A stretch of DNA of 45,381 nucleotides from Lysobacterales bacterium (GTDB lineage: Bacteria; Pseudomonadota; Gammaproteobacteria; Xanthomonadales; SZUA-5), in contig JALHMG010000044.1 in the NCBI GenBank assembly GCA_022844135.1, forward strand, positions 1-45,381. The letters run 5' to 3'. Shown in pieces: positions 3,615 to 42,007 of the stretch (positions are counted from its first letter, which is position 1; each line of letters opens with the position of its first letter). The notes beneath the pieces were generated by a model, which saw nothing but the letters and a program-made list of their open reading frames with translations, searched no databases and was not told the DNA's origin. A program made the translations under genes and the position numbers.

Positions 3615-3631
3615 GCGGACCATGGGTCCGC
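3615..3631. repeat. Dispersed palindromic element (single copy)
   Basis: GCGGACCATGGGTCCGC is an inverted repeat with 7-bp arms and a 3-bp centre. It lies in the gap between divergent nadE and pilD and is followed by GTAAC. The identical 17-mer occurs five more times (one of them inverted) inside the pxpC gene at 37198-37383, so it is a dispersed element and not a local operator. Confidence 0.85.
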
Positions 3632-8366: not shown

Positions 8367-9749
8367 ATGGCGATTTCTTCACTCACGCTCTCGGCGCCGA
8401 TCAGACAGCGCTTGTCGGTAGCGCCGCGAGATTTTTATCGACGCGATCATGCGGTCGAGTTGTTCGAGCAAGGCGATGCGCTGAGCGGCGCCATCGAAGC
8501 GTTGCGCTATCTGCTGCCGGGCATGGAGATCGGCGATCTGATCTCGCCCCTACGACTGGTGCAAGGCACCGCGCGGGTCTACGTCAGCGTCGCCGACGAC
8601 ATCTTGACGGTGCGCGCGCATCTGGCGGCCCTCGGCGATCCGCCATCGACCGCGGCGCTGCGTTTCTTCCTGACACGGATCTCGGGCACCGGGCAGCTGT
8701 ATCAACCGCGGCTGCGCGGCGATCAAGTGGTGCTTGAGTTCAGCGATCGCTTGTCGCTGGTGCATCCGCTGAAGTTGATCGAATTGATGCAGCGTATTGC
8801 CATGGAAGCCGACAACCACGATCAGTGGCTGATCGATGCCTTCGGCGTCACCACACCCGATCGCGAGCCGCTGACCGCCCTCAGCGACGAGGAGTTCGAG
8901 CGCGCGTGGACGATCTGGCAGGCGCACTGGGAGGCTGTCGATGCGCTGATGGTGGAATCGCGGCGGCGGCGGATCATCCGCTTTCTCGACGCCTTGGGCG
9001 CGTTTGCGGTCAATCAGGTGCGCTATACCTTACCGTTGTTCGGCAGCGTCCGGCAGAGACTGAACGATGCCGCCGACGACTTCACAGATCGCGACGAGGA
9101 CCCGAGCAAGCGCGACGCGGCGCTGTCCAAATGCATCAAGGAAATGCGCGCGATCGGTCGCGAAGAGTTGCGCGCAAACCTGGGTCATGCGCGCTATGCG
9201 ATTTCGCCGCTGCACGAAGGCACGCCATCGTTGCTGACCAGCATGCTCGGCGCGGGGAGCCGGATGCAGGCTACCAGCGATCTGCGCGCGGCCGGCCGCG
9301 CGCTCGAAGCGTCGCTCGAATTGGTCGCCGACTTCTTGTACCTGTTGGCGCACCACACCTGGAGCGCGCCGATCGAGCAGAGCCTGCGTCAGGCGCTCGA
9401 TGCCGTCAGCGACAAGCCTTGGCGCGAAGCGGCCGATACGCTCTGGTCGCACGCCAATCAAATTGCGCGCACCTATGGCAGCCACGGCGAGGGCGAGGAG
9501 GACGTTGATGACGCCCCCGGCGCGGAGCATGCGGTGACCTATCAGCGCTCAACCAGCGGGGCACGGGGCACGGGGCACGAGCCGCGGGGGACGGGCCCAT
9601 CGCCGTCGCCGAACAAAGCTTGCAGGGCGCTCGCAGCCGAGCCCAGCCTGCTTGGCCGTTCGCAAACTTCGCCGACGGGCGAGACGCCGCTTCTTCATGC
9701 CCCACGCAGCGTGCCCCGCTGTAACGTTTCGACCGGAGCCCACCCATGA
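8367..9749 (+). CDS. Unrecognised protein, putative partner of the adjacent protease
   Basis: A soluble 460-residue protein that I do not recognise as a named family. Residues about 65-160 form an alpha/beta segment (from ARVYVSVADDILTV to ADNHDQWLIDAFG). Its pattern parallels the C-terminal domain of the protease encoded next and resembles YbjN/type III chaperone folds; this is my inference. Residues 170-380 look largely helical and rich in Arg/Glu. The last 65 or so residues are low-complexity (STSGARGTGHEPRGTG), encoded by a GC-rich repeat element at 9556-9720, and are probably not part of the fold. The stop overlaps the protease ATG (ATGA, 9746-9749), implying translational coupling. The start is the ATG giving MAISSLTLSA. 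Confidence 0.7.
   Translation: MAISSLTLSAPIRQRLSVAPRDFYRRDHAVELFEQGDALSGAIEALRYLLPGMEIGDLISPLRLVQGTARVYVSVADDILTVRAHLAALGDPPSTAALRFFLTRISGTGQLYQPRLRGDQVVLEFSDRLSLVHPLKLIELMQRIAMEADNHDQWLIDAFGVTTPDREPLTALSDEEFERAWTIWQAHWEAVDALMVESRRRRIIRFLDALGAFAVNQVRYTLPLFGSVRQRLNDAADDFTDRDEDPSKRDAALSKCIKEMRAIGREELRANLGHARYAISPLHEGTPSLLTSMLGAGSRMQATSDLRAAGRALEASLELVADFLYLLAHHTWSAPIEQSLRQALDAVSDKPWREAADTLWSHANQIARTYGSHGEGEEDVDDAPGAEHAVTYQRSTSGARGTGHEPRGTGPSPSPNKACRALAAEPSLLGRSQTSPTGETPLLHAPRSVPRCNVSTGAHP
9556..9720. repeat. GC-rich element bounded by 10-bp inverted repeats
   Basis: AGCGGGGCAC at 9556-9565 and its reverse complement GTGCCCCGCT at 9711-9720 bound 165 bp. The left end contains three tandem GGGGCAC heptamers (9558-9578). 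The element encodes the odd Pro/Gly/Ser-rich tail of the upstream gene. It resembles a REP/MITE-like insertion, but I see no target-site duplication and no transposase. Confidence 0.5.
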
Positions 9750-36893: not shown

Positions 36894-38111
36894 TCACAAC
36901 CCCAGCCGCGCACGCGCGGCGATCGCGAGCCGCGCGATGCGTTGGCGGCGCCAGCGCCATAGCCACTGCGCGGTGCCGACACTGATCGATTCAAAACGCA
37001 CGGCGCTGCCCGGCGGTCGTTGCGCAAGACGTGCAATGTCGATGCTTGCCAGATGCGCGATGCGTGGATAGCCGCCGGTGACGCCCGCCTCGCGAAGCAA
37101 CACGACGGGCTTCCCGCTAGGCAACAGCTGCACGGTGCCGGGCGTTACCGGCTCGCTGATCAATTCGCTGGTGTGGGTTTGGCTCTGCCTTTGGTACGCG
37201 GACCCATGGTCCGCATATTCGAGTTTTGAAGCAGAAGCGGGCGGACCATGGGTCCGCGTACCAAAAGGCGAATCAGAAGCGGGCGGACCATGGGTCCGCG
37301 TACCAAAAAGCGAAGCAGAAGCTTGCGGACCATGGGTCCGCGTACCAAAAAGCGAAGCAGAAGCTTGCGGACCATGGGTCCGCGTACCAAAAAGCGTATC
37401 AACCTGCCTTGCGGCGATCGGCTCGCCATCGAGCAGCGCAGCCATACGATTCGCCGTTGGCGCTAGCGTGAAGGTTCGTCCAAACAGGGCGTTGCGATCG
37501 GCCAGCAGTGGCACGTGCGTACCAGGCATGAGTCGCAGCGGCGCCTCGCCGAAAACGTCGATCAAACCCTCTGCGTCCGCCCACCAATTGGCGATGCGGG
37601 CGGGCGCACCGCGCGGCGGTACGCTCTGGCCGAATGCAGCCGGCAATCGCGACGCGTGGAAGTCGAGCCGATCGCGAGCCTTGAGCGCACGCGGACCCGT
37701 GCCATGCACAGTGGCGCTTTGACTGCCCAACCAGATATCGCTGACGATTCCGCCCGCAACGGCGAGATAGGCGAAACGCCCAGCGCTTGCCGGCCCCAGC
37801 GTCAGCGTCGAATCCGCCGCGATCAGCAGCGGGCGCCAACCAGGCACGCGCACGCCATTGCTGCGCGCCTCTACACGCGCGCCAGTGATCGCGACCAGCG
37901 TCGCTTCGCTGAAGGCTATTTCGGTATGACCGAAGCCGATCTCAAGCGCCGCAGTGTCGGGGCGGTTGCCAACCAGCACGTTCGCGACCGCGTGCGAGAA
38001 ATCGTCCATCGGACCGCTGGGCGGTACGCCCGCGCTACGCCACTCGCGTTCGCCCGCCTGCACGCTGGACAGCGGCGCTATGCGTCGAATCTGGATCGCG
38101 GCATCGATCAT
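36894..38111 (-). CDS. pxpC: 5-oxoprolinase subunit PxpC with repeat insertion
   Basis: The carboxyltransferase-like (KipA/AHS2) subunit of 5-oxoprolinase or of a related biotin-dependent carboxylase. Family marks are AGVPPSGPMDD, ALEIGFGHTEI, YLAVAGGI, NRMAALLDG and the ending LPSGKPVVLLREAGVTGGYPRIA. The 405-residue protein is about 70-90 residues longer than usual. The excess lies at about residues 238-306, made of four 14-residue repeats (type FGTRTHGPQASASL) and a degenerate inverted copy, encoded by palindromic DNA elements. The insertion falls just before ELISEPVTPGTVQLLP, probably a surface loop, and keeps the frame. The start overlaps pxpB by ATGA. Whether the enzyme is still active is unknown. 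Confidence 0.9.
   Translation of the reverse strand: MIDAAIQIRRIAPLSSVQAGEREWRSAGVPPSGPMDDFSHAVANVLVGNRPDTAALEIGFGHTEIAFSEATLVAITGARVEARSNGVRVPGWRPLLIAADSTLTLGPASAGRFAYLAVAGGIVSDIWLGSQSATVHGTGPRALKARDRLDFHASRLPAAFGQSVPPRGAPARIANWWADAEGLIDVFGEAPLRLMPGTHVPLLADRNALFGRTFTLAPTANRMAALLDGEPIAARQVDTLFGTRTHGPQASASLFGTRTHGPQASASLFGTRTHGPPASDSPFGTRTHGPPASASKLEYADHGSAYQRQSQTHTSELISEPVTPGTVQLLPSGKPVVLLREAGVTGGYPRIAHLASIDIARLAQRPPGSAVRFESISVGTAQWLWRWRRQRIARLAIAARARLGL
37198..37214 (-). repeat. Inverted copy of the palindromic element in pxpC
   Basis: GCGGACCCATGGTCCGC is the exact reverse complement of the 17-mer repeated at 37241-37383 and at 3615. The flanking TTTGGTAC matches the reversed GTACCAAA flank of the direct copies. 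It lies within the pxpC reading frame. Confidence 0.9.
37241..37383 (+). repeat. Four tandem copies of a 42-bp palindromic unit in pxpC
   Basis: The 17-mer GCGGACCATGGGTCCGC starts at 37241, 37283, 37325 and 37367, an exact 42-bp period. Each is followed by GTACCAAAA and a less conserved link such as AGCGAAGCAGAAGC. Because 42 is a multiple of three, pxpC stays in frame and gains 14 residues per unit. Confidence 0.95.
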
Positions 38112-38761
38112 GACGGCACGAAACGCACGCGATCGCCGACGCTCAGGCGGTGCGGCGGAGACCTCGTTGGATCGAACAGCCACGCCTCGGTGCGTCCAAT
38201 CACGCGCCAGCCGCCGGGGCTTTCTTGAGAGTAAATGCCGGCTTGCGCACCGGCAATGGCCACGCTGCCGGGGGCAACGCGCGCACGCGGAGATTCGAGC
38301 CGCGGCACTTGAAGCGCCTCTGGCAGACCGAGCAAATAAGGAAAACCCGGCAGAAAGCCGAGCATCGCGACGCGGTACTCTGCGCCCGCGTGCAGATCGA
38401 CGACGGCGCGCGCAGACAGTCCTGTCAGCTCAGCTACAGCGCCCAGGTCGGGACCATCGCTGCCGCCGTAACAGGTGGGGATGTCGATGAACGGACGTTC
38501 CATGTCACCCTCATCGGCGTCCGGCAGCAGGTCCAGCACTTCGGCAATGCGTGCCTCGATACGCGCAGGGTCGGCGTGGACGATGTCCATTTCCACGCAT
38601 AGCGATGTGTAACTTGCGGTTACCGCGCGCACGCCGGGCACAGACGAGGAACGCAGCGCCTGGAGCGCGCGTTGGGTGGTGCGATGCTCGGCCAGACCAA
38701 TGTGCTCGCGTAGCCGCACGAGGAAGGCTTGATCGCCGAGTGGCCAGAGGGTGTAGTGCAT
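38108..38761 (-). CDS. pxpB: 5-oxoprolinase subunit PxpB
   Basis: The KipI/AHS1-type subunit, 217 residues. It partners PxpC in ATP-dependent ring opening of 5-oxoproline, or in the structurally related carboxylases. The marks are LGDQAFLVRL near the N-terminus, IDIPTCYGG, the core MLGFLPGFPYLLGLPE, and the ending ESPGGWRVIGRTEAWLFDP. The start is the ATG giving MHYTLWPLGDQ; the 50 upstream in-frame codons have no family resemblance. The third subunit gene pxpA is not in the window. The gap to gatB (38762-38960) shows nothing notable. Confidence 0.92.
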   Translation of the reverse strand: MHYTLWPLGDQAFLVRLREHIGLAEHRTTQRALQALRSSSVPGVRAVTASYTSLCVEMDIVHADPARIEARIAEVLDLLPDADEGDMERPFIDIPTCYGGSDGPDLGAVAELTGLSARAVVDLHAGAEYRVAMLGFLPGFPYLLGLPEALQVPRLESPRARVAPGSVAIAGAQAGIYSQESPGGWRVIGRTEAWLFDPTRSPPHRLSVGDRVRFVPS

Positions 38762-38960
38762 GCGCGGTTGTCGTGACTGCCCCAAACGCTGTAATAGCAG
38801 AATCGACGCGAAGCGATGCGCCAGGCCGGATACTCCATGAGGTCGCGAGGAAATGGCCCGACTTCGTTGTAACGACGAGGAAATCTTGAAGGTGATCGAA
38901 CACAAAGGCACCGATCCACTGCGGCGCGCAGCAAGAAACGATTCGCTGGGCAGCGGTCGC

Positions 38961-40382
38961 CTACTGCAATCGCTCGCGTAGCAACACCGTCACTTGCGCG
39001 GGATTCGCCTGGCCCTGCGTGCGTTTCATGATCTGGCCAACGAAAAACGCCAGCAGTTTTTCGTTGCCGGCGCGAAATTGGGCGACTTGCGCAGGATGCT
39101 CAGAGATCACGGCGTCGACATGCGCGCCGAGCGCGCCGCTGTCGCTGACTTGCTTCAGTCCGAGCCGCGCGATGACGTCATCGGCGCTTTCGGTGCCGGC
39201 GAACATGGCCTCGAACGCCTGTTTGGCCATCTTGCTCGACAAGCTGCCGTCGTGCACGCGCGCTACCAGGCCGCCCAGGCGCGCTGCCGACAAGGGCGAT
39301 TGTTCGATGCTCAAGTTCGCGGCGTTCAACGCGCCCTGCCATTCGGACAACACCCAGTTGGCGCATAGCTTGGCCGGTGCGCCGCTGGCGGCGATCACCG
39401 CCTCGAAGGCCTCCGAAAGCGCGCGATCTTGCGTCAACTGCGTGGCGTCGTATGCGGTCAGGCCGAGCGCCGACTGGTAGCGCTGACGGCGGGCGTCCGG
39501 CAGCTCGGGCAGCGCGTCGCGCTCGGCGGCGATCAGCGCCGCATCGAGCACCAGTGGCGGCAAATCGGGATCGGGGAAATAGCGATAGTCGTGCGCCGAT
39601 TCTTTGCCGCGCATGCTGCGGGTTTCGTCGCGCTGCGCGTCGTACAAACGCGTTTCCTGGACGACTTTTCCGCCTGATTCGATCAGACGGATCTGGCGCT
39701 CGATTTCGTAGTCGATGGCTTTCTCGACGAAGCGAAACGAGTTCACATTCTTGATTTCGGCGCGCGTGCCCAGAGACTCGCCGGGGCGGCGCACGGACAC
39801 ATTCGCATCGCAGCGGAACGAACCTTCCTGCATGTTGCCGTCCGACACGCCCAACCAGCGCACCAACGTGTGCAGCGCCTTGAGATAGGCCACGGCTTCC
39901 GTAGCGCTCTCGATGACCGGCTCGCTGACGATTTCCAGCAACGGCGTTCCGGCGCGATTGAGATCGATGCCGCTGTCGCGATGGAAGGCATCGTGCACAC
40001 TCTTGCCTGCATCTTCCTCCAAATGCGCGCGGGTCAGCGCGATACGCTTCTCGGTGTCGCCGACGCGAATATCGACGCCACCGCCGATCAGAATCGGCGC
40101 CTCGAACTGGCTGATCTGATAACCCTTGGGCAAATCCGGATAAAAATAGTTCTTGCGCGCGAACACGCTGCGCGGCGCGATCGTCGAGCCGAGCGCCAGC
40201 CCCAATCGAATCGCCAGCCGAACCGCCTCCGCGTTCATCACCGGCAACGTACCGGGCATGCCCAAATCCACCGCGCACGCCTGCGCATTCGGCTCCGCGC
40301 CATACGCCGTCGCCGCGCCCGAAAAAATCTTCGAGTGGGTCTGCAGTTGGACGTGAACTTCGAGGCCGATCGTTGCGAGCAT
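38961..40382 (-). CDS. gatB: Asp-tRNA(Asn)/Glu-tRNA(Gln) amidotransferase subunit B
   Basis: GatB, 473 residues, is the kinase and tRNA-binding subunit that activates misacylated Glu-tRNA(Gln) or Asp-tRNA(Asn) for amidation. The family blocks are [63 protein letters not shown] and a C-terminal YqeY-like tail (to LLRERLQ). It lies downstream of gatA, separated by 182 bp that contain a heptamer tandem repeat ending four bases before the ATG. No Shine-Dalgarno sequence is visible, which is unusual for an operon gene. Confidence 0.96.
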
Positions 40383-40386
40383 GGTT

Positions 40387-40435
40387 GGTTGTTGGTTGTT
40401 GGTTGTTGGTTGTTGGTTGTTGGTTGTTGGTTGTT
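40387..40435. repeat. Seven tandem GGTTGTT heptamers before gatB
   Basis: Seven perfect copies of GGTTGTT on the + strand (AACAACC on the gatB mRNA strand), with partial copies at both ends, run to within a few bases of the gatB start codon. A 7-base unit is not a multiple of three and can slip, so copy number may vary between isolates. Confidence 0.95.
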
Positions 40436-40564
40436 GGTAGGGCGCCTTTCCATACGCCGGCAGTTGCTACGAAGCGAGGCCGGTTCCCTCCCCGGCCAGC
40501 GGGGGACGGAATTGGTCCGGCTCCGCAACAGCTGAGCCGAAGTGTCGATCGGCACTGCTGGCCA

Positions 40565-42007
40565 CTAAGCCGCTCCTCCCGGCACCGCCCGGTGCCAATC
40601 GGTGACTTGTTGAAACGCATGCGCAGCACCGATCAGGCGAGATTCCTGCCACCAGGGGGCGCACAATTGCAGGCCGACAGGAAGCCCATCAGAAAATCCG
40701 CACGGGATCGACAACGCGGGCAAACCCGCAAGATTCACGCTGACGGTATTGATATCCGCCAGATACATCGCCACCGGATCGGCGAGCTTCTCACCCAGTT
40801 TGAAAGCGACGCTCGGGCTCGTGGGTCCGGCAATGACATCGACGTCGTTAAACACCCGCGCAAAGTCCTCGGCAATCAGCCGCCGCACTTTCAGTGCGCG
40901 GTGATAGTAAGCATCGTAATAACCGGCACTCAACACATAGGTGCCAGTCAGGATGCGCTTTTGCACTTCATGCCCAAAGCCCTCCTCGCGCGAGCGCGTG
41001 TAGAGATCGGCCAGGTCTTTTGGATTCGCGCAACGATGGCCGTAGCGCACGCCGTCGAAGCGCGCGAGATTGCTCGACGCCTCCGCCGGCGCGATGACGT
41101 AGTAGGCAGCGATAGCATGCTCGCTCGATGGCAGGTCGACATCCACGATCCGCGCGCCGTGCGCGGCGTACACCGCCAAGGCCGCATCGATGGCGTTGGC
41201 GACACCGGCATCGATGCCCGCGCCGCACCACTGCCGCGGGCGCCCGATACGCAGGCCTGCGAGCGACATCGCCAGCGCGCCGTCGATATCGATCGGCGGC
41301 GCGTCGACGCTGGTCGGATCGCGCGGATCGAAACCGGCGATCACGTTGAGCGCGATCGCCGCGTCGTGCGCGCTGGTCGCGATCACGCCCGCCTGATCGA
41401 GGCTCGACGCGTAAGCGATCATGCCGTAGCGCGACACGCGGCCGTAGGTCGGCTTGATGCCGGTCACGCCGCATAGCGCCGCTGGCTGACGAATCGAGCC
41501 GCCGGTGTCGGACGCGGTCGCGAACGGCACCACACGCGCGGCCACCAGTGCGGCGGACCCACCCGAAGAACCGCCCGGCACGCGCGAGCGATCCCACGGA
41601 TTGCGCACTGCGCCGAAGTGCGAGTGCTCATTCGACGAGCCCATCGCGAACTCGTCCATGTTTGCCTTGCCGATCAATACCGCGCCCGCCGCCTGGAGCT
41701 TGTCGTGAATCGTTGCGCTGTAGGGCGGAACGAAGTTCGCCAGCATCTTCGAGCCGGCTGTGCTCAATATGTCTCGGGTGCAGAACACATCTTTGTGGGC
41801 GAAGGGCACGCCCAGCAGCGCGCCGCGCGCGCCGCGCGCGCGTTCGGCATCGGCGGCATCGCCAGCGGCGCGCGCGGCATCTGCAGCGATCGTGATCAAT
41901 GCGTTCAGATCGGCATGGCGCGCAGCACGATCGAGCGCATTCTCGGTCGCGGCGCGCGCCGAGGTGGAACCGTCGTCGAGCGCAGCCAGGAGCGACAGCA
42001 AACTCAT
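40565..42007 (-). CDS. gatA: Asp-tRNA(Asn)/Glu-tRNA(Gln) amidotransferase subunit A
   Basis: The glutaminase/amidase subunit, 480 residues, with the amidase-signature Ser-cisSer-Lys triad visible. Lys72 is in GVPFAHKD, Ser147 in PGGSSGGS and Ser171 in [11 protein letters not shown], with the same spacing as in characterised GatA proteins. It supplies ammonia from glutamine to GatB through a tunnel. It overlaps gatC by 4 bp. Its presence implies that the organism makes Gln-tRNA or Asn-tRNA at least partly by the indirect route. Confidence 0.96.

Follow-up and report, generated by a model that had tools for sequence, protein, structure and literature searches.

Host gene and tandem array

The window, by which is meant the whole stretch of DNA that was analysed (45,381 nucleotides), carries on its minus strand a CT_A_B gene at 36894..38111, coding for a protein of 405 amino acids (PF02626, E=5.9e-64), and this gene is the host of the insertion described here. 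Upstream of it, and overlapping it, lies a pxpB-like gene of the CT_C_D type on the same strand (38108..38911; PF02682, E=2.7e-65), the coordinates being those of the longest ORF, with a real start possibly internal. A LamB_YcsF (PxpA-type) gene is present on another contig of the source genome. The name pxpC, given in an earlier note on this DNA, is a putative one that depends on the Pfam CT_A_B match, the adjoining CT_C_D gene and this LamB_YcsF gene; the NCBIfam PxpC model stays below its cut-off with the host protein (141.9 vs 500) and likewise with the insert-free protein of a same-genus relative, G001 (146.4). A further Pfam match, to Nucleoporin_FG over residues 238-294 (21.2 vs a cut-off of 32.2), was judged to be low-complexity noise.

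Inside pxpC, a tandem array of four 42-bp units, with one REP apiece, occupies 37228..37395 on the minus strand (Tandem Repeats Finder: 37228-37396, 4.0 copies, 96% matches). Each unit contains GCGGACCATGGGTCCGC, and one further, inverted copy lies at 37198-37214, so that the central claim of the earlier note, a palindromic element amplified in frame inside pxpC, holds. Several of its details needed correction. There are indeed four units, but an exact match exists only between units 3 and 4, from which unit 1 and unit 2 deviate at a few positions, and what is shared by all five copies is the 17-mer itself, while the spacers differ; the 17-mer, described as a palindrome, is a perfect 7-bp stem with a 3-nt loop and is not fully palindromic; and the net insertion adds 231 nt, or 77 codons, and not about 70 residues. 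This insertion was placed at 37163..37393 (minus strand) by DNA alignment to the pxpC of G001, with edges uncertain by several bases. Taken together with their heads, the REP copies of units 1, 2, 3 and 4 lie at 37241..37262, 37283..37304, 37325..37346 and 37367..37388, all on the minus strand, and the inverted copy at 37193..37215 on the plus strand, where its head, GGTAC, comes first. An outward-facing, REPIN-like pair of REPs spans 37190..37265, measuring 43 bp from start to start and having perfect inverted arms of 25 nt. The sixth exact copy of the 17-mer in the window is a single intergenic one with a degenerate head (3615..3631). With up to 3 mismatches allowed, the window holds 12 matches to the 17-mer (6 sites, both strands each) against 0.31 expected, and none of 100 shuffled windows reached 12.

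When set against the solved homologue 5dud_A, the insertion site corresponds approximately to a loop around residues 217-223 that precedes a conserved strand, as counted by hand on the alignment. Structural models of PxpC, one lacking and one containing the insert, both built from five-sequence alignments, had mean pLDDT values of 50.9 and 50.5, respectively, too low to judge the loop by; confidence is lowest in the insert (block means of about 24-30), and much of the remainder is weak too.

Other features of the window are recorded here as observations. A perfect 7-bp tandem repeat, GTTGGTT, is found at 40384-40438 (7.9 copies), immediately upstream of the ORF 38961-40382 (-) and in the gap preceding the ORF 40565-42007 (-), two ORFs which we take to resemble gatB and gatA. 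An imperfect 7-bp repeat, CGGGGCA, lies at 9557-9595 (5.6 copies, 78% matches). Between 17800 and 33500, the codon table rates few ORFs as genes although ORFs of 491-622 aa are present; the DNA may be foreign here, or the gene caller may fall short.

The REP family and its transposase

In the 5.34-Mb source genome the exact 17-mer occurs in 149 copies forming 55 clusters, split 79 to 70 between the strands, with none in the reversed-sequence control. By flanking bases, 87 and 55 copies were placed, the last 7 by difference, and all 149 were then read in context. The earlier note had regarded absence of the 17-mer elsewhere in the genome as an outcome that would refute it, and the count is the opposite of this. 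Starting with the head, the consensus reads GGTAC-GCGGACC-CAT-GGTCCGC-A; within the head, G, G, T, A and C are kept at 149, 142, 141, 137 and 146 of the 149 sites, respectively, and the trailing A at 142. Stems of this kind with the loop left free number 217 in the same REP-bearing stretches. The foot of the hairpin is GTAC, with C as its last base at 146/149 sites, and so differs from GT[AG]G. The element is a REP, and because of this foot it is called so by structure, placement and link to a REP-associated tyrosine transposase (RAYT), with no claim to membership of the GTAG super-family.

The arrangement of the copies follows a pattern. Neighbouring REPs of opposite orientation lie within 400 bp of each other 19 times, and 17 of these pairs have their heads pointing outward; at five loci, pxpC among them, the members of such a heads-outward pair are 42-44 bp apart. 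Same-orientation spacings from 28 bp up are found at 20 loci. Tandem amplification, which the earlier note had pointed out in pxpC, is common in this REP family. Periods of 30, 39, 42, 66 and 69 bp also occur in intergenic arrays, and the idea that a period divisible by three marks genic arrays was dropped for this reason. Judged by eye, spacers are similar within one array and different between arrays.

The source assembly is a draft in 75 contigs, so the copy number of the array may be off. A misjoined array or a wrong number of units could come from such an assembly, since short reads cope poorly with units of 42 bp; nevertheless, the units bear distinct substitutions, the frame is open through them, and both flanks align to one gene of G001. 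An artefact of this sort is accordingly very unlikely as a whole, while a wrong copy number alone is possible.

Four Y1_Tnp matches were found in the source genome. One of them, on contig C25, has inverted REP arrays on its two sides: the upstream REPs are in sense and the downstream ones in antisense orientation. Its protein passes the NCBIfam model REP_Tyr_transpos (NF047646) with 82.1 bits against a cut-off of 80, as well as Pfam Y1_Tnp, and contains the motifs NHVH (HUH) and YIRMNP (Y). Two of the features that define a REPtron, namely a RAYT with HUH and Y motifs and inverted REPs flanking the gene, are therefore present. Used as a query against its own genome at E 0.001, this RAYT retrieved itself only, and against PDB sequences it had no match at E 0.01. 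The Y1_Tnp genes on contigs C18 (L181) and C55 (L183) stand near other repeated hairpins and are possibly further REPtrons; on C45 (L182) a partial Y1_Tnp match lies at the end of the contig, and no repeated hairpin was seen near it.

Relatives, the empty site and the state of pxpC

In G001 the pxpC orthologue is 78% identical and the segment is absent, leaving an empty site, with a net difference of 77 codons. A PxpC match at E 0.001 was obtained in 25 of 60 relatives, the other 35 being without one, and the array is absent in 25/25 of those with a match, the gap falling at approximately residues 236-314; none of these alignments spans the array, and some of their edges run into it. The comparison proposed in the earlier note thus went in its favour, since it had viewed a segment shared by close relatives as the sign of an ancient domain. 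A lineage-specific PxpC domain of old age, for which the open frame of the segment could be cited, is refuted at the sampled depth by this absence, and the segment DNA moreover matches dispersed REPs; we give this reading practically no weight. The exact 17-mer is found in 0/60 relatives, G001 included, and in an order-wide sample 1/397 other genomes has it, in one copy with no head. For the RAYT, the best match in G001 (E 3.8e-4) is not a close one.

Nei-Gojobori estimates of dN/dS for pxpC against G001 are 0.10 for residues 1-233 and 0.12 for residues 317-405, with dS values of 1.5 and 0.9, near saturation, and these ratios span the whole divergence rather than the time since insertion. At 167 columns where three relatives agree, the source PxpC differs at 33 and that of G001 at 39. 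These figures bear on whether the array marks a dying gene, as might be suspected from a large repetitive insert and from the low codon-usage score of pxpC (12). Decay of pxpC is, however, quite unlikely: the frame is intact, dN/dS is about 0.1, the source lineage has not been faster than G001, and pxpB-like and LamB_YcsF genes are present. The dN/dS values, the column counts and the LamB_YcsF gene favour a working pxpC, with a constraint not dated to after the insertion.

Placement relative to genes and a second in-frame array

Called genes contain 2/55 REP clusters, compared with 367/417 control positions taken 0.8-1.7 kb away in the same stretches. The gene caller was home-made, based on codon usage and trained on the REP-bearing stretches; it labels just 52% of the window coding and so misses genes. 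In a test of open frames, which is independent of the gene calls yet uses the same codon table, 29/55 clusters lacked any frame that stays open over 40 codons in both directions; the other 26 had 43 open frames, and a positive coding score on both sides was obtained in two of these, pxpC and an ORF on contig C9. The REP family is overwhelmingly extragenic (53/55 clusters). This prevailing placement, and a REP with a cognate RAYT, are unlike the picture that the earlier note had drawn.

The second host is an ORF for a hybrid histidine kinase of 1469 residues (contig C9, L180:4564-8973, minus strand), with HisKA at residues 802-869, HATPase_c at 917-1025, a receiver at 1222-1331 and also an AraC-type HTH. 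The linker that joins HATPase_c to the receiver is filled by a REP array with spacings of 69, 46, 62, 108 and 108 bp. This array is in frame, and its sense REPs are translated as GTRTHGP, in the frame that is also used in pxpC. The related kinases of G001 (80%) and G004 (73% identity, receiver part) have shorter linkers without the REP repeat. In the G001 kinase (L186) an unrelated low-complexity linker stands at the site of the array, and the linker therefore varies in both genomes.

All six frames of the REP are free of stop codons. This is permissive only, and weak as a sign of adaptation, an idea that was set aside since 46% of shuffled 21-mers are equally open; for the 42-bp unit in tandem the figure is 4%. 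As to folding, the 85-nt single-stranded DNA of the pxpC REP pair has a predicted fold with a z of -11.1, and the transcript segment is predicted to fold at -113.4 kcal/mol against a shuffle mean of -68.4 (z -9.9), which agrees with the suggestion of the earlier note that the transcript could form hairpins. An array kept for a function would make use of such properties, whether its mRNA hairpins tune pxpC translation or stability, its peptide has a binding role, or slippage provides length variation. The folding, far better than that of shuffles, and a 17-mer identical in five copies with spacers that are not, could be taken in this sense. Yet any REP pair gives such folding, recent amplification equally accounts for the identical cores, and the GTRTHGP peptide is dictated by the REP sequence and recurs in the unrelated kinase. 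We consider retention for function unlikely.

Origin of the array

We are highly confident in the following account: a REP pair belonging to the family of the genome's own RAYT entered a length-variable loop of pxpC, the 42-bp unit was locally duplicated to four, and the result was kept because the total is a multiple of three, the REP is free of stops in six frames and the loop tolerates changes in length. The first step would be the insertion of the pair into this loop. The first copy would have been moved by the RAYT through cutting and joining of single-stranded DNA, as suggested by the behaviour described for the family in the parts of the published work used here (PMC8266576, PMC6006769). 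Local duplication of the 42-bp unit (REP plus spacer) would then have given four copies, that is, the outward pair and three further tandem units, the extra units probably being made by slippage or unequal recombination. The insert is read as one REP pair with later 42-bp duplications because heads point outward so regularly across the family and pairs at 42-44 bp recur at five loci. Its survival would be owed to the multiple of three, the stop-free REP frames and the length-tolerant loop, and the lengthened PxpC is presumed to be made and active. In substance this is what the earlier note had pictured, a tolerant loop before a conserved strand colonised by a dispersed element and expanded in frame, and the empty site and the 149 copies uphold it.

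GGNNC heads in related RAYT loci

Relatives of the RAYT were sought in samples of 61, 369 and 398 genomes, each including the source and partly overlapping. At the nine closest RAYT loci, from eight genomes, GGNNC precedes the hairpin in 9/9, L201 being conditional. The head is GGTAC at the locus of the present RAYT (L105/L205); GGACC at L106, with one copy TGACC; GGATC at L107, with further copies in which the C is paired into the stem; GGAAC and GGAGC at L199, where hairpins were seen upstream only; GGAGC at L200; and, only when the outermost C-G pair is left open, GGACC at L201, where the copies on both sides point the same way. Three loci were found after the pattern had been noticed: L206 (GGAGC), L207 (GGACC) and L214 (GGAGC and GGGGC). 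Hairpins are inverted on both sides of the RAYT at 7/9 loci, the exceptions being L199 and L201.

Farther away the pattern changes. The more distant matches L208-L213 have single or no hairpins and other heads, and L203 and L204 have single hairpins only. At L202, a more distant RAYT that is 39% identical over the match, the stems are preceded by TGTAC, GTGCC and GTCCT, so the C-ended foot may extend beyond GGNNC. Among the RAYT-like loci L108-L124, five show a repeated hairpin with a steady head: GGTGG at L110, CGTAG or TGTAG at L111, and TGGGA or TAGGA at L108, L112 and L116. At L120 and L121 the lone 'repeat' is fully self-complementary, so that one site scored on each strand. The amino acid following the conserved W (M in the present RAYT, Q in several others) was considered as a correlate of the C-ended head and rejected, as six cases comprised 3 M and 3 Q, all of them C-ended.

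In the portions of the literature drawn on, RAYT-linked heads are of the form GT[AG]G and vary chiefly at positions two and three (PMC3733652); subclass 2.6 and class 3, whose foot is CnGA, depart from this (PMC6006769). In the main texts of the open-licence literature covered, no GGNNC-headed class of REP-RAYT systems is named. The GGNNC head in place of GT[AG]G may thus be the new part of the finding, nine loci being few for the claim of a class. Experiments reported in PMC8266576, as far as that source was used, provide the context: in the Marinomonas enzyme a mutant GTAC foot moved cleavage to GA and GT sites, whereas in the Stenotrophomonas system the same foot mutation abolished cleavage. 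We propose tentatively, doubt slightly outweighing belief, that a distinct REP-RAYT class in Pseudomonadota has a GGNNC foot (mostly GGANC, here GGTAC), that its natural cleavage sites would start with G (GT or GA in the source genome) and not be CT or CA if the guide-pairing model holds, and that, with stop-free REPs, it may seed in-frame, length-variable linkers. For the guide-pairing model of how REPs are cleaved, the C-ended heads would be naturally occurring substrates.

Known systems and meaning

Rickettsia palindromic elements are palindromic DNA lying in frame in unrelated genes, and this they share with the pxpC case. The REPs described here are set apart from them by placement and RAYT, with 53/55 clusters called extragenic and a RAYT present. 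The likeness drawn in the earlier note was not far-fetched, then, although the extragenic placement and the association with a RAYT give REPs a different character. The comparison is a reasonable one because, in the part of PMC3733652 used, the intragenic CGTC repeats of R. conorii are equated with RPE-4 and RPE-6.

The family also has much in common with REP, REPIN and BIME sequences and their RAYTs as presented in the parts of PMC2817692 and PMC3116915 drawn on: a short hairpin with a conserved 5' head, more than 100 copies, outward pairs, tandem arrays and a RAYT with inverted REPs. The difference is in the head and foot, which are GT[AG]G there, while the pxpC family has the head GGTAC and the foot GTAC. 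REP clusters inside ORFs encode 43-82 residues in Thauera and R. conorii (PMC3733652, in part); those intragenic REPs belong to GTAG or CGTC families, whereas here the head is another and the REPs lie in genes for a PxpC-like enzyme and a hybrid histidine kinase, a comparison that covers parts of the main text of PMC3733652. In tnpAREP subclass 2.4, according to the sections of PMC6006769 used, in-frame REPs lie in a peripheral region with the frame kept; in-frame insertion is thus common to both, but in that subclass it is the transposase gene that carries the REP. PARCEL (PMC2996958) shares tandem coding palindromic DNA with the pxpC array, but it is a 25-residue amphipathic motif in ORFs without assigned functions, and its abstract makes no link to a REP hairpin or a RAYT.

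In the parts of the open-licence literature covered, no locus of this type, an in-frame palindromic or REP insertion, was found beyond the cases of PMC3733652 and PMC6006769. In view of the intragenic REPs of the former and the tnpAREP insertions of the latter, the in-frame pxpC array adds one more example to a known phenomenon. It is a clean one, with an empty site in the same genus, in which mobile hairpin DNA has turned into protein sequence, and through pxpC and the C9 kinase such DNA serves as coding sequence at two unrelated genes of one genome.
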